Source: Candidatus Omnitrophota bacterium
GTDB lineage: Bacteria > Omnitrophota > Gorgyraeia > Gygaellales > Profunditerraquicolaceae
Assembly: GCA_026387335.1 (NCBI GenBank)
Contig: JAPLLX010000006.1
Coordinates: 1-44,948 of the forward strand
Length of the DNA stretch: 44,948 bases
Direction: 5' to 3'
The translations under genes and the position numbers were made by a program. The notes under the pieces are model-generated. The model was not told the origin of the DNA and ran no database searches. It worked only from the letters and a program-made list of their open reading frames with translations. The first letter of the stretch is position 1. Every line of letters begins with the position of its first letter. This document shows, piece by piece, positions 29,278 to 34,551 of the stretch.

Positions 29278-30204
29278 ATGAAAATAGTCATAGTAGGCCC
29301 TGGAGCAATGGGTTGCCTGTTGGCGGCTTTTTTATCTAAAATCAAGGAAGAGGTATGGATCCTTGATTATAATAAAGAGCGGGCTGAAAAAATTAACAAA
29401 TCCGGAATAAACCTGACCGGGTTATCCGGAGAGTGGACTTCTAAACCCAAAGCCAGCTCTGATATTAAAGATATCGGGACCGCTGACCTGCTTATTATAT
29501 GCGTCAAATCTTACGATACCAAAGCCGCGATAACCCATTCCAAGGCGCTAATCGGCCAAAATACCTCGGTCTTAACCCTGCAGAACGGCATCGGTAATAT
29601 TGAAATTATAAGCGAGGCGATCGGGCCGGAGAGGATCATCGGCGGAGTGACTAACCTGGGCGCAACTTTGCTCGACGTAGGCAAAACTAAGCACGCCGGA
29701 AAAGGCGAAACTGTGATCGGCCGAGTCGATGGGAAAATTACGGTCGAGATGCGTTCCATACGCGAGATCTTTAATCGGGCCGGATTAGAGATGCGTATTT
29801 CAAAAGATATAAAAAGCCTGCTTTGGTCAAAATTAATTATTAATGTCGGCATTAACGCTTTAACCGCCATAACCCGGCTGAAAAACGGTAGATTAACGGA
29901 GTTTGAAGGCCCGCGTAAGATCATGCGCGAGGCCGTTACCGAAGCAGTGCGTATAGCTAAACGCAAAAAGATAAAACTTATTTATGACGATCCGTTAGCT
30001 AAGGTGGAGGCGGTATGCGAGGCTACGGCGGAAAACATCTCTTCGATGCTGCAGGATATCGAGCGTAAAAAACGCACTGAAATAGATTTCATAAACGGGG
30101 TAATCGTGCGACTGGGGCAGGAATTAGGTATCCCGGTCCCGGTAAACACTATACTTATGGATTTAGTCAAAACTATTGAAGCAAGCCATAAGCTAAAGCC
30201 TTAA
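29278..30204 (+). CDS. panE: 2-dehydropantoate 2-reductase (ketopantoate reductase)
   Basis: PanE reduces ketopantoate to pantoate with NADPH in pantothenate synthesis. The 308-residue protein opens with the nucleotide motif VIVGPGAMGCLLAAFLS. It contains LIICVKSYDTKAAI and LTLQNGIGNIE, the LLWSKLIINVGINALTAIT segment with the catalytic lysine region, and a C-terminal helical domain with SSMLQDIERKKRTEIDFING. These are all standard ApbA/PanE features. AAAGGA precedes the ATG. panB lies 3.5 kb downstream. Because ketopantoate reductase-like proteins form a broad family, exact substrate is inferred from the good motif match and the presence of panB, coaX and coaB. Confidence 0.92.
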   Translation: MKIVIVGPGAMGCLLAAFLSKIKEEVWILDYNKERAEKINKSGINLTGLSGEWTSKPKASSDIKDIGTADLLIICVKSYDTKAAITHSKALIGQNTSVLTLQNGIGNIEIISEAIGPERIIGGVTNLGATLLDVGKTKHAGKGETVIGRVDGKITVEMRSIREIFNRAGLEMRISKDIKSLLWSKLIINVGINALTAITRLKNGRLTEFEGPRKIMREAVTEAVRIAKRKKIKLIYDDPLAKVEAVCEATAENISSMLQDIERKKRTEIDFINGVIVRLGQELGIPVPVNTILMDLVKTIEASHKLKP

Positions 30205-30225
30205 TCAGGAATAGCCCTTAACTAA

Positions 30226-31155
30226 ATGTTTAAAAAAATCTTTCCTGTATTATGTATATCTTGCGCTTTTATATTCGGCCTACTGCTGTTAAGCGGCTGC
30301 GAGAATCGAGAACTTTATCGCCAGGCGCGCGTAATGCTGGGCACATTTATAGAAGTCAACTCCACCGACCCTCGAGCGGCAAAAATCGTATTTAACGAAA
30401 TCAAGCGTATTGAAAATTTGTTAAGCAAGTATGAACCGGAAAGCGAAATAACGAAATTAAATAAAACAGGTTACTTAAAGGCCAGCCCGGAAACATTCTA
30501 TATTATAAAAAAATCAAAAGAGTTTTACAAGGCATCTGGCGGCGCCTTTGACATAACCGTAGCCCCGCTTATGGATATCTGGGGCTTTACGGATAAAGAA
30601 TACAAGATACCTAAAAAGACTCAAATAAAAGATGCTTTAAGACTGGTAGGAACGGATAAAATTATTTTGCAGGAATCTAATAATGTGATACAATTTGAAC
30701 TTTCCGGAATGAAAATAGACCTGGGCGCGATAGCTAAAGGTTATTGCCTGGATTGCGCGGCCAAAAAGTTAAGGGAGGCGGGGATTAAAAATTGCCTGAT
30801 CAATGCCGGGGGCCAGGTTTATTGTTTAGGGACGCGTTGGAATAAACCCTGGAGAATAGGGATAGCTAACTCCCGGGGGGATCGCTTAAGCGGGTATTTA
30901 GAGTTGAAAAATAAATTCGCAGCGACCTCCGGAGATTATGAACAATACTTCATTAAAAATAAAAAACGTTACGCGCATATACTAAACCCTCAAACTGGTT
31001 ATCCGGCTAACTCCAAGATTACTTCAGTAACGGTTATAGCCGATAACGGGTTAACAGCGGACGCCTTAGCTACGGCAATTTTTGTCCTGGGGAAAGATAA
31101 AGGAAATGAACTAAGCAAAAAATTTAACGATATTCAGGTTAAAATATATGAATAA
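30226..31155 (+). CDS. apbE: FAD:protein FMN transferase, lipoprotein
   Basis: ApbE attaches FMN to threonine residues of exported or membrane flavoproteins such as RnfG and NqrC. The 309-residue protein has a type II signal peptide with lipobox LLSG-C near residue 25, so it is anchored in the periplasm. Motifs include RVMLGTFIEV, YEPESEITKLNK, GGAFDITVAPLMDIWGF, KIDLGAIAKGY, LINAGGQVY, TSGDYEQYF, HILNPQTGYPAN and the metal-binding DALATAIFVLG. No Rnf/Nqr subunit gene is visible here, so the target protein is unknown. The end overlaps the next gene by 8 bases, which is probably incidental. Confidence 0.94.
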   Translation: MFKKIFPVLCISCAFIFGLLLLSGCENRELYRQARVMLGTFIEVNSTDPRAAKIVFNEIKRIENLLSKYEPESEITKLNKTGYLKASPETFYIIKKSKEFYKASGGAFDITVAPLMDIWGFTDKEYKIPKKTQIKDALRLVGTDKIILQESNNVIQFELSGMKIDLGAIAKGYCLDCAAKKLREAGIKNCLINAGGQVYCLGTRWNKPWRIGIANSRGDRLSGYLELKNKFAATSGDYEQYFIKNKKRYAHILNPQTGYPANSKITSVTVIADNGLTADALATAIFVLGKDKGNELSKKFNDIQVKIYE

Positions 31156-32434
31156 TACTCCTAAAACCTTTATCTTTCTTTACTACATTATCAAACTTCC
31201 GGTCATTGATGCCAATACGGGCAAAAGAATCGGCCGGGTTCTGGACCTGGCCGCGGCCTTAAAGGAAATGTATCCTAAGGTGACCGGATTAATCATGCGC
31301 GACAAAGAAGGCAAGAAAAACTATATCCCCTGGAAGAATGTAAAGATGCTGACGGAAGAAAAAGGGGTTTTTGTAGAAAATACCCCGGAGGCATTTCAGC
31401 CGGATTTTAAATTAGCGGAAAACGAAATATTACTTAAAGAAACATTCCTGGATAAGCAGATCGTAGATATTCATGGTTCAAAAGTAGTCCGGGTCAACGA
31501 CCTGCATCTTTTAAGGGAAGGCTTGAATCTTTGGGTAGTGCACATGGACATAGGTATCACCGGCTTAATTCGCAGGTTAGGCTGCATTAAAATATTCAAT
31601 TTTATCGTCAATCTTGTTTCTTCTTATGAACTGCAAGACAGATTAATCTCCTGGAAACACGTCCAGCCTATAAACGGGCCGATTGGAAACGATTCCCTGT
31701 CGTTAAAAGTACACCATTCAAAATTAGCCGAACTGCATCCGGCGGATATCGCGGATATTATTATCGACTTAGGGACAGAAGAAAGGTTAAATATTCTAAA
31801 ATCCATGGACAGCGCCACTGCGGCCAGCACTATTCAAGAGCTCCCTTTAAGGGTGCGCCTGCAAGTCGCCGACCTCCTGGATCAAAAATCCCTGGTAGAT
31901 ATCATTAACGAAATGGCCATAGATGAAGTTGTGGATTTATTTTCGCAATTACCCAAAAAGAAGATAACAAATTTATTTTCCCGGCTCCCAGAGGAAAAAG
32001 TGGCGCAAATTTCTGACCTCCTTGGCCATGCCCAGGATATCGCCGGAAGTATAATGAACACAGAGTTTGTTTCCCTGAAACACAATATGACCGCGGGAAT
32101 GGTTTTGGAAAAAATAAAAGAGGTAAAAAAGAAGATCTCCGTTTATTATATTTATGTCCTGGATGATGCTGATCTATTAGTAGGAGTCTTAACCTTACAG
32201 CAACTACTCATGGCTCCTGCGGAGAAAATAATCTCGGAATTTATGCGTAAACGCGTCGCCAAAGTCAAGGTGAACACCAAGATAAAAGATGTGGCGGAGG
32301 TTTTTTATAAATATGATTTTACTGTAGTTCCGGTTATTGATAAATCCGGTAAAATGCAAGGAATAATCACTATGAAGGACGCTTTTGAATCAGTATTTCA
32401 TCAGATACGCCAAGAAACAGAGGAAATTAAATGA
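31148..32434 (+). CDS. Soluble PRC-barrel / MgtE_N / tandem CBS protein
   Basis: The 428-residue protein has two PRC-barrel-like parts (about residues 10-80, IIKLPVIDANTGKRIGRVLD, and 95-175, DKQIVDIHGSKVVRVND). An MgtE N-terminal superhelical domain follows at about 190-295 (LAELHPADIADIIIDLG, FSRLPEEKVAQISDLLG). Two CBS domains close it, from AGSIMNTEFVSL onward (about 300-420). In MgtE magnesium channels the N and CBS domains bind Mg2+ and gate the pore; here the pore domain is absent and there are no membrane helices. The stop overlaps the NRAMP-like transporter gene by 4 bases (ATGA), so it probably acts as a Mg2+-responsive partner or regulator. Domain calls are confident; the role is inferred. 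Confidence 0.87.
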   Translation: MNNTPKTFIFLYYIIKLPVIDANTGKRIGRVLDLAAALKEMYPKVTGLIMRDKEGKKNYIPWKNVKMLTEEKGVFVENTPEAFQPDFKLAENEILLKETFLDKQIVDIHGSKVVRVNDLHLLREGLNLWVVHMDIGITGLIRRLGCIKIFNFIVNLVSSYELQDRLISWKHVQPINGPIGNDSLSLKVHHSKLAELHPADIADIIIDLGTEERLNILKSMDSATAASTIQELPLRVRLQVADLLDQKSLVDIINEMAIDEVVDLFSQLPKKKITNLFSRLPEEKVAQISDLLGHAQDIAGSIMNTEFVSLKHNMTAGMVLEKIKEVKKKISVYYIYVLDDADLLVGVLTLQQLLMAPAEKIISEFMRKRVAKVKVNTKIKDVAEVFYKYDFTVVPVIDKSGKMQGIITMKDAFESVFHQIRQETEEIK

Positions 32435-33705
32435 AATTCCTAGATAAAATCAAAGAAAACCCGATGATGCGCAATCTAATAATATTCCTGGCTATCCTCG
32501 GGCCCGGAATCATTACCGGCAGTGTAGATAATGACGCGGGTGGTATTACCACTTATTCCGTAGCCGGCGCGTTATATGGCTACAAGTTGTTATGGACATT
32601 AATCCCATCTTTTGTGATTTTAGCTGTAGTGCAGGAGATGAACGCCAGGATGGGTATTGTTACAGGCAAAGGCTTAGCTGACCTTATCCGCGAGAATTTC
32701 GGGGTTAAGATCACCTTTTTTATATTTTTAGGCCTGGTTGCCGCGGATATCGGGAATACCGCGACGGAATTTGCCGGTGTTGCCGGAAGTATGGATATCT
32801 TCGGAGTAAGTAAATACCTATCTGTGCCCCTGGTTGCGCTGGGCGTCTGGATACTTGTAGTCAAAGGCGACTATAAAATATCAGAGAGAATCTTCCTGCT
32901 TTTTAGCTTTTGTCTTTTATCTTATATAGTATCCGCTATCCTAGCCAAGCCAGATTGGGCGCAAATCGGCTCTTCCTTGATAAACCCGACAATGCATCTG
33001 ACTAAAGATTACTTAGGTATGGTTTTGGGTATAGTCGGCACAACCATCGCGCCCTGGATGCAATTTTATATGCAATCAGCAGTCATCGAAAAACGGATCA
33101 AGATAGAGGATTATAAATTTGTGGTGCTGGATGTGATTATCGGATGCCTGGCAACGATTGTGGTGGCGTTTTTCATTATGGTTGCCTGCGCCGCTACGCT
33201 GCATCAAAACGGAATAGTAATAAACGAAGCTAAAGACGCGGCAATATCCCTAAAGCCATTCGCCGGAATATTCGCTTCACAACTTTTTGCTTTCGGGTTA
33301 TTTGTAGCTTCGGTATTCTCCGCCACCATACTTCCTCTGGCTACAGCATTTTATGTCTGCGAGGCATTTGGTTTTGAAGCCGGAATAAATAAAAAGATCA
33401 ATGAAGCCCCTCAATTCTACGCCTTGTTTACGTTTATCATAGTAATCGCCGTAATCATAATTCTTATACCCAACGCTCCGCTTATCGCCATTACCATCTG
33501 GTCGCAGATAATCAATGCCATGCTTTTACCGGTAGTGCTCATATCAATGATCAGCATGGTCAATAACAAGAAAATAATGGGGGAATATACCAACAATAAA
33601 TTCCAGAACGCGGTAGGCTGGTCAACCACTATAGTATTGATCGCGCTTACTTTTATGCTTATAATTTCGCCTTTGATCACTTATCTTCTAAGGTTTTTCA
33701 AATAA
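32431..33705 (+). CDS. NRAMP-family (SLC11-like) transporter with altered metal-site motifs
   Basis: The 424-residue protein has about 11 membrane helices and the NRAMP arrangement: LGPGIITGSVDNDAGG ... AGALYGY in helix 1 and GTTIAPWMQFYMQSAVIEK in helix 6. In Mn2+/Fe2+ NRAMPs these motifs read DPGN and MPH. Here they read DAGG (Asp35-Gly38) and APW (207-209): the Asp is kept, but the Asn and the transition-metal-binding Met are lost. Loss of that Met has been described for NRAMP-related magnesium transporters. The coupling to an MgtE_N-CBS protein points to Mg2+ or another divalent ion that lacks soft-ligand preference. Fold confident; substrate inferred. Confidence 0.85.
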   Translation: MKFLDKIKENPMMRNLIIFLAILGPGIITGSVDNDAGGITTYSVAGALYGYKLLWTLIPSFVILAVVQEMNARMGIVTGKGLADLIRENFGVKITFFIFLGLVAADIGNTATEFAGVAGSMDIFGVSKYLSVPLVALGVWILVVKGDYKISERIFLLFSFCLLSYIVSAILAKPDWAQIGSSLINPTMHLTKDYLGMVLGIVGTTIAPWMQFYMQSAVIEKRIKIEDYKFVVLDVIIGCLATIVVAFFIMVACAATLHQNGIVINEAKDAAISLKPFAGIFASQLFAFGLFVASVFSATILPLATAFYVCEAFGFEAGINKKINEAPQFYALFTFIIVIAVIIILIPNAPLIAITIWSQIINAMLLPVVLISMISMVNNKKIMGEYTNNKFQNAVGWSTTIVLIALTFMLIISPLITYLLRFFK

Positions 33706-33726
33706 AATAGGTTTGGAGGGATTAAT

Positions 33727-34551
33727 ATGCACAAAGTAACGATTAGTGAAATTTTAGCTTTAAAAGGCAAGCGTAAAATCACTATGCTGACTGCCTATGA
33801 CTATCCAATAGCCGGCCTAGTGGATAGGGCAGGGCTGGATATGATTTTAGTGGGCGATTCGCTGGCGAATGTGGTTTTAGGCCTGGATTCTACAACTAAA
33901 GTCGGAATGAACGAGATGCTGCATCACGCCAAAGCCGTGACCCGGGCAGTAAAAGAGGCGCTGGTAATCGGCGATATGCCTTATGCATCCTACCAGCTTA
34001 ACTCCGCAGAATCGGTAAAAAATGCCCAGAGATTTATCTCTGAGGCAAATTGCCAGGCGGTAAAACTAGAGTGGTTTCCAGATTGCCCGAAAGTAACCGA
34101 AGAAATACTTAAAGCCGGAATACCTGTTATGGGCCATATCGGGCTCACTCCGCAAACCGCGGATCAACTAGGAGGATTTAAAGTCCAGGGCAAAGATGCC
34201 AATGCCGCCCGCAGGCTTATTGAACAGGCGCAATTACTGGAAAAACTGGGATGTTTTTCAATAGTCCTGGAATGTGTTCCGGATAAAATAGCGCAGATGA
34301 TTACTCAGAAATTAAAAATACCGACCATCGGAATCGGAGCAGGGTTGTATTGCGACGGACAAGTATTAGTGATCAATGACATGCTTGGGCTCTTTGAACG
34401 CTATACGCCTAAGTTCGTCAAAAAATACGTGAATCTTTCGCCATTGATCCTTAAGGCGATAGAAGATTTTAAAGAAGAGGTTTTGCAGGAAAAATTCCCC
34501 GCGCCTGAACACACCTTTACCATTAAAGTTGACGAGTTAAATAAAATATGA
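33727..34551 (+). CDS. panB: 3-methyl-2-oxobutanoate hydroxymethyltransferase
   Basis: PanB transfers a hydroxymethyl group from methylenetetrahydrofolate to ketoisovalerate, giving ketopantoate. The 274 residues contain ITMLTAYDYPIAGLVDRAG, ILVGDSLANVVLG (metal-binding Asp), GDMPYASYQ (second metal Asp region), AVKLEWF in place of the usual AVKLEGG, MGHIGLTPQ, VLECVP and IGIGAG. The WF after the catalytic-region glutamate is a small deviation. GGAGGG precedes the ATG. The gene is 21 bases after the NRAMP-like gene and overlaps the following unknown gene by 4 bases. PanE in the window does the next step. Confidence 0.94.
   Translation: MHKVTISEILALKGKRKITMLTAYDYPIAGLVDRAGLDMILVGDSLANVVLGLDSTTKVGMNEMLHHAKAVTRAVKEALVIGDMPYASYQLNSAESVKNAQRFISEANCQAVKLEWFPDCPKVTEEILKAGIPVMGHIGLTPQTADQLGGFKVQGKDANAARRLIEQAQLLEKLGCFSIVLECVPDKIAQMITQKLKIPTIGIGAGLYCDGQVLVINDMLGLFERYTPKFVKKYVNLSPLILKAIEDFKEEVLQEKFPAPEHTFTIKVDELNKI

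Follow-up and report, generated by a model that had tools for sequence, protein, structure and literature searches.

How does a cell that takes up Mg2+ through an uncoupled importer of the NRMT kind avoid overfilling itself with the ion? On physiological grounds, uptake that is uncoupled and powered by the membrane potential calls for a brake of some sort, and two adjoining genes in the window (the whole stretch of 44,948 nucleotides of Candidatus Omnitrophota DNA analysed here) bear on how this is achieved. Taken as a whole, our answer is that they probably encode an uncoupled NRMT Mg2+ importer and a separate Mg2+-sensing brake. That the window pair imports Mg2+ is very likely; that the other protein (the partner) is a brake acting on the NRMT in trans we infer with confidence a little above even. 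The genes and their parts lie as follows.

31148 to 32434, + strand: partner gene, 428 aa (open reading frame, Pfam, AlphaFold2 secondary structure, Foldseek)
31148 to 31345, + strand: first PRC-barrel domain, residues 1 to 66 (Pfam PF05239, E value 9e-5 at residues 8 to 66)
31424 to 31705, + strand: putative second PRC-like unit, residues 93 to 186 (AlphaFold2 strands and invariant columns)
31733 to 32035, + strand: MgtE_N domain, residues 196 to 296, containing D259 and D263 (Pfam)
32048 to 32395, + strand: CBS pair, residues 301 to 416, containing D390, D411 and E414 (Pfam)
32431 to 32434, + strand: ATGA overlap of the transporter start codon and the partner stop codon (sequence)
32431 to 33705, + strand: NRMT-type transporter, 424 aa (Pfam, PDB search, family motif counts)

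The partner frame is open over 31148 to 32434 and encodes a soluble protein with the order PRC-PRC-MgtE_N-CBS-CBS and no pore. Pfam matched PRC at residues 8 to 66 (E value, 9e-5), MgtE_N at residues 196 to 296 (5e-20), and CBS (2e-19) in two stretches, the pair reaching about residue 416; the MgtE pore (PF01769) was absent from the Pfam matches of the protein and from the whole genome, and the plug helix is nearly missing. The partner AlphaFold2 model (55 relatives in the alignment; mean pLDDT, 86.6; pTM, 0.46) has a beta-rich PRC-like unit at about residues 93 to 186, upstream of the MgtE_N helices. This second unit had no Pfam match, and the model and alignment alone point to it. Foldseek searches with the model returned MgtE cytosolic domains or whole MgtE as the top ten matches; overlaid on MgtE, the model gave TM scores of 0.29/0.49 and an rmsd of about 12, the domain matches being sure and the overall arrangement too uncertain (pTM, 0.46) to judge whether the ligands meet. 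Among 55 partner relatives, Pfam found PRC in 50 and both MgtE_N and CBS in all 55. The second PRC-like unit is the richest in residues invariant across these 55 partners (D102, D107, D118, D134, R143, and W169), and D33 in the first unit is likewise invariant. Because invariant residues fall there too, beyond the sensor domains, the PRC part is a reasonable candidate dock for the transporter. That the partner is a broken or truncated MgtE was rejected, the PRC-bearing architecture being conserved across phyla and the genome having no MgtE pore. Longer partners are found at L200 and L182, with open reading frames of 588 and 518 aa.

Ligand numbering was checked against the Thermus thermophilus MgtE sequence. 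In the window partner, D259 and D411 align to D91 and D247 (Mg4), D263 to D95 (Mg6), and D390 and E414 to D226 and D250 (Mg5), with both Mg5 positions kept. NMR and electrophysiology of MgtE connect these Mg2+ sites to gating (PMC5882242). Retention of the acidic MgtE N/CBS ligands, proposed as a check by an earlier sequence-only reading of this locus, holds at the Mg4 and Mg6 positions in 110 to 121 of 121 partners: all 121 are acidic at the D95 position, 120/121 at the D247 position, and 110/121 at the D91 position, which is lost in a divergent group with the NRMT gene first. Lysine stands at the first Mg5 position in 42 of the 43 resident Omnitrophota partners; the Mg7 glutamate position is S227 in the window partner, and the Mg2 and Mg3 ligands are gone along with the plug helix that carries them. 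The same ligand columns were equally conserved in full MgtE controls, which means that the partner has kept, and did not newly acquire, the sensor fold and its N-CBS sites; these give no pointer to NRMT regulation.

The transporter frame is open over 32431 to 33705 and matched Nramp (PF01566; E value, 3e-95). Its top PDB match was 7qia (EleNRMT; 1e-108), with the best MntH far behind at 3e-28. Helix 1 reads DNDAGG and helix 6 GTTIAPWM, giving the site motif D35-A-G-G38/T204-T-I-A207, and W209 takes the NRAMP histidine position. The window transporter carries the NRMT signature, since DAGG and TTIA match the published DxxG-TxxA/T exactly (available text of PMC8806188). Among relatives, helix 1 is DNDAGGI in 52 of the 54 rows not gapped at that point and helix 6 is GTTIAPWM in 49/56, a conservation far beyond chance. 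The PDB alignment also shows that two residues of proton-coupled NRAMPs, the histidine of helix 6 and the aspartate of TM3, are replaced in the window transporter, as they are in EleNRMT. Motif and PDB ranking therefore point to an NRMT, for which uncoupled Mg2+ transport is predicted; EleNRMT itself carries Mg2+ without H+ coupling and also moves Mn2+ (PMC8806188, available text). A canonical Mn2+/Fe2+ NRAMP was rejected on the site motif (DAGG/APW versus DPGN/MPH) and the PDB ranking. The score against PRK00701 (NCBIfam MntH subfamily) was 156.7 bits, under the curated cut-off of 430.

Much of the sequence-only reading is borne out by these searches. Its domain calls (PRC-barrel, MgtE_N, and tandem CBS without a pore, beside an NRAMP fold) were matched by Pfam, its hand alignment (DPGN to DAGG, MPH to APW, methionine lost) agrees with that of the PDB search, and its placing of the protein among NRAMP-related Mg2+ transporters accords with the 7qia match (1e-108) and the DAGG/TTIA motif.

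The ATGA overlap that it had described is present at 32431 to 32434, and genes of other pairs also overlap or are separated by anything from a few bases to some tens. A phylum survey covered 285 genomes of Omnitrophota, of which 57 carry NRMT, with 56 checkable loci; the partner adjoins NRMT on the same strand in 55 of these 56 (partner first in 48, NRMT first in 7). In the genome collection, the 80 best loci have hosts that include Bacteroidota, Bacillota, Spirochaetota, Ignavibacteriota, and others; contig ends truncate three, and of the 77 checkable loci, 72 have an adjacent partner and five genuinely lack one. The conserved pairing that the earlier reading had expected from one locus is thus found within the phylum (55/56) and elsewhere (72/77, best 80 loci). 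Partner-transporter fusions, as a sign of contact, were not seen in about 130 loci. A cytosolic loop motif exclusive to partnered NRMTs was not found either; partnerless NRMTs keep the same loops. The NRMT-first divergent group (L092, L094, L103, and L113 to L116; partner second) has glycine at the D91 position in 7/7 partners and transporters only 34 to 37% identical, and may perhaps handle another metal.

Within the 285 genomes, the MgtE pore (PF01769) is present in 4 of 57 NRMT genomes versus 144 of 228 others (Fisher test, 2e-15, relatedness ignored), and within the window's family in 1/20 versus 18/30 (P 7e-5, relatedness again ignored). CorA had no such exclusion with NRMT in the same genomes (P 0.17). 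Few genomes have NRMT together with a true MgtE, and this near-exclusion adds evidence that the pair takes the place of MgtE. In the window's own genome, neither the MgtE pore nor CorA was found; it holds a CNNM/CorC-type protein and P-type ATPases below the MgtA cut-off. None of NRMT, MgtE, and CorA is present in 36 of the 285 genomes, so other Mg2+ routes exist. G102 and G104, from the window's genus, are among these 36, and incomplete assemblies may account for some.

No M-box riboswitch was found in the window. An M-box lies ahead of the locus on the same strand in 13/16 Bacillota relatives, about 100 to 280 bases ahead of the partner in 11 of them, and the window transporter falls in one supported clade (99) with these M-box Bacillota NRMTs, except the partnerless L197 and L198. 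At those two Peptococcaceae loci the NRMT stands directly behind an M-box, which is transcriptional control without a sensor protein. According to the available text of PMC4072509, an M-box is upstream of only some nrmT operons and is not a membership requirement.

Transporters 70 to 89% identical to that of the window form a clade (type W) represented in five or more families of the phylum; most members of these families have another transporter type only about 52% identical to type W. In the trees, partners group by host family, unlike transporters; mapped on the partner tree, transporter type shows eight or more switches, and a single clade of type-W-associated partners was rejected (p 5e-63, from a quick tree and for a group named after the tree was seen). 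Between L222 and L223, most matched flanking genes are 82 to 89% identical on both sides and the partner is 81% identical, versus 52% for the transporter; L228 and L229 have the same pattern, and the swapped stretch covers the whole transporter gene. The slot used in the window's family runs recO, ketopantoate reductase, ApbE, pair, panB, glyS, and ppdK (ends missing in some contigs), and it holds a W partner with a W transporter, a resident partner with a W transporter, or a resident partner with a resident transporter. At 29278 to 34551 of the window, a ketopantoate reductase-like gene and panB (pantothenate synthesis) flank the pair and ApbE, a slot conserved in the family. In G282, the resident partner has no adjacent transporter; a different contig of this genome carries a W transporter. 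At L093 and L117 (G282), the partner has lost its transporter but still occupies the ancestral site, next to an endonuclease III-like gene. Contig chimerism is an unlikely source of the swaps, because several assemblies show them with undisturbed flanks. Repeated exchange of the transporter gene at its original site, next to a resident partner that stays put, is a new observation (L222 to L237). One partner beside two rather different transporters fits a common contact surface, or loose coupling. The swaps are natural tests, with one sensor set beside two transporters and three combinations in the slot of one family.

The sequence-only reading had offered the pair as a new candidate system, which it is not. 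In the available text of their paper, Shin et al. (2014; PMC4072509) named nrmT, reported that most nrmT genes have as a neighbour a gene encoding the cytoplasmic domain of MgtE, and suggested feedback regulation or a chaperone role for its product; both the pairing and the feedback idea were already there. The window pair belongs to this described kind, with the pairing known since 2014. In the same text, Ca_c0685 and Ca_c3329 rescued a Mg2+ importer mutant without the partner, and the Acidobacterium capsulatum transporter gave no better rescue when its partner was co-expressed. These results neither confirm nor exclude a brake.

We propose that the pair would form a Mg2+ uptake operon. The membrane potential would draw hydrated Mg2+ in through the NRMT, with no coupling to protons. 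The partner would be a soluble MgtE sensing half on a tandem PRC-like N-terminal part, and would bind cytoplasmic Mg2+ at the interface of its N and CBS domains. When Mg2+ is plentiful, the partner would bind the NRMT and lower its activity in trans, probably docked on it by the PRC part. The pair would in this way do the job of a one-piece MgtE and replace MgtE in these genomes. If the partner is such a brake, then in many phyla the sensing half of one superfamily serves another superfamily's pore as a free-standing subunit. More tentatively, and with less than even confidence, the partner may be a portable Mg2+-sensing brake whose PRC part docks on a surface common to NRMTs about 52% identical. 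A portable brake with a common docking surface would let the transporter be replaced wholesale while the sensor stays, making the pair a two-piece, mix-and-match counterpart of MgtE.

The brake has to be weighed against an alternative that we regard as unlikely but deserving of attention: that the operon imports Mg2+ but its partner, instead of gating, buffers or chaperones cytoplasmic Mg2+, or reports the level of Mg2+ or of adenine nucleotides to another target. CBS pairs bind nucleotides in many proteins, which counts for this alternative, as does the persistence of the partner away from any NRMT in G282. It further draws on transport without the partner and on the null co-expression result, both of which are also points against a brake (PMC4072509, available text). 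Near-universal tight adjacency and the near-exclusion of MgtE nevertheless better suit a dedicated regulator. A second alternative, which we consider improbable, questions the metal: the transporter would be mainly a Mn2+ or a mixed importer, with a partner responding to Mn2+ or another metal. The A. capsulatum transporter is mainly a Mn2+ importer that rescues a Mn2+ mutant fully and a Mg2+ mutant only poorly (available text of PMC4072509), so it would be unsafe to take every member as Mg2+-selective, and EleNRMT carries Mn2+ as well (available text of PMC8806188). The window transporter, however, has the NRMT site motif and shares its clade (99) with Bacillota NRMTs behind a Mg2+ riboswitch, in a host genome without MgtE or CorA. 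That the genes adjoin for expression reasons only, with no functional link, is very improbable despite separate transporter and partner histories in about seven lineages, given that nearly every replacement puts the new NRMT beside the old partner with synteny conserved, that adjacency holds in both gene orders, and that the adjacency counts argue strongly against it.

The preferred reading, an NRMT importer with a Mg2+-sensing brake, can be set beside four known systems. The NrmT and MgtE-fragment operons (Ca_c0685, A. capsulatum) have the same two genes, in the same order in most loci, and share the feedback proposal; their Bacillota relatives have an M-box, whereas the window has none, the closest members to the window pair are from Omnitrophota, and the available text of Shin et al. 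(2014) contains no mention of a tandem PRC N-terminal part (PMC4072509). EleNRMT (Eggerthella lenta, 7qia) is 44% identical to the window transporter and shares the DxxG-TxxA site and the loss of the NRAMP histidine, but is without the N..MG...N...N loop after TM10 that paired NRMTs have; it was studied alone, with no partner mentioned in the available text (PMC8806188). Canonical NRAMPs such as MntH share the fold of the window transporter, in which their helix 6 Met and His, helix 1 Asn, and TM3 aspartate are all replaced. The MgtE channel (T. thermophilus, 2yvy/2zy9) has in common with the window partner its N and CBS domains and the Mg4, Mg5, and Mg6 acidic positions, whereas the partner is without the pore and plug helix, has S227 for the Mg7 glutamate, and has gained a PRC part.
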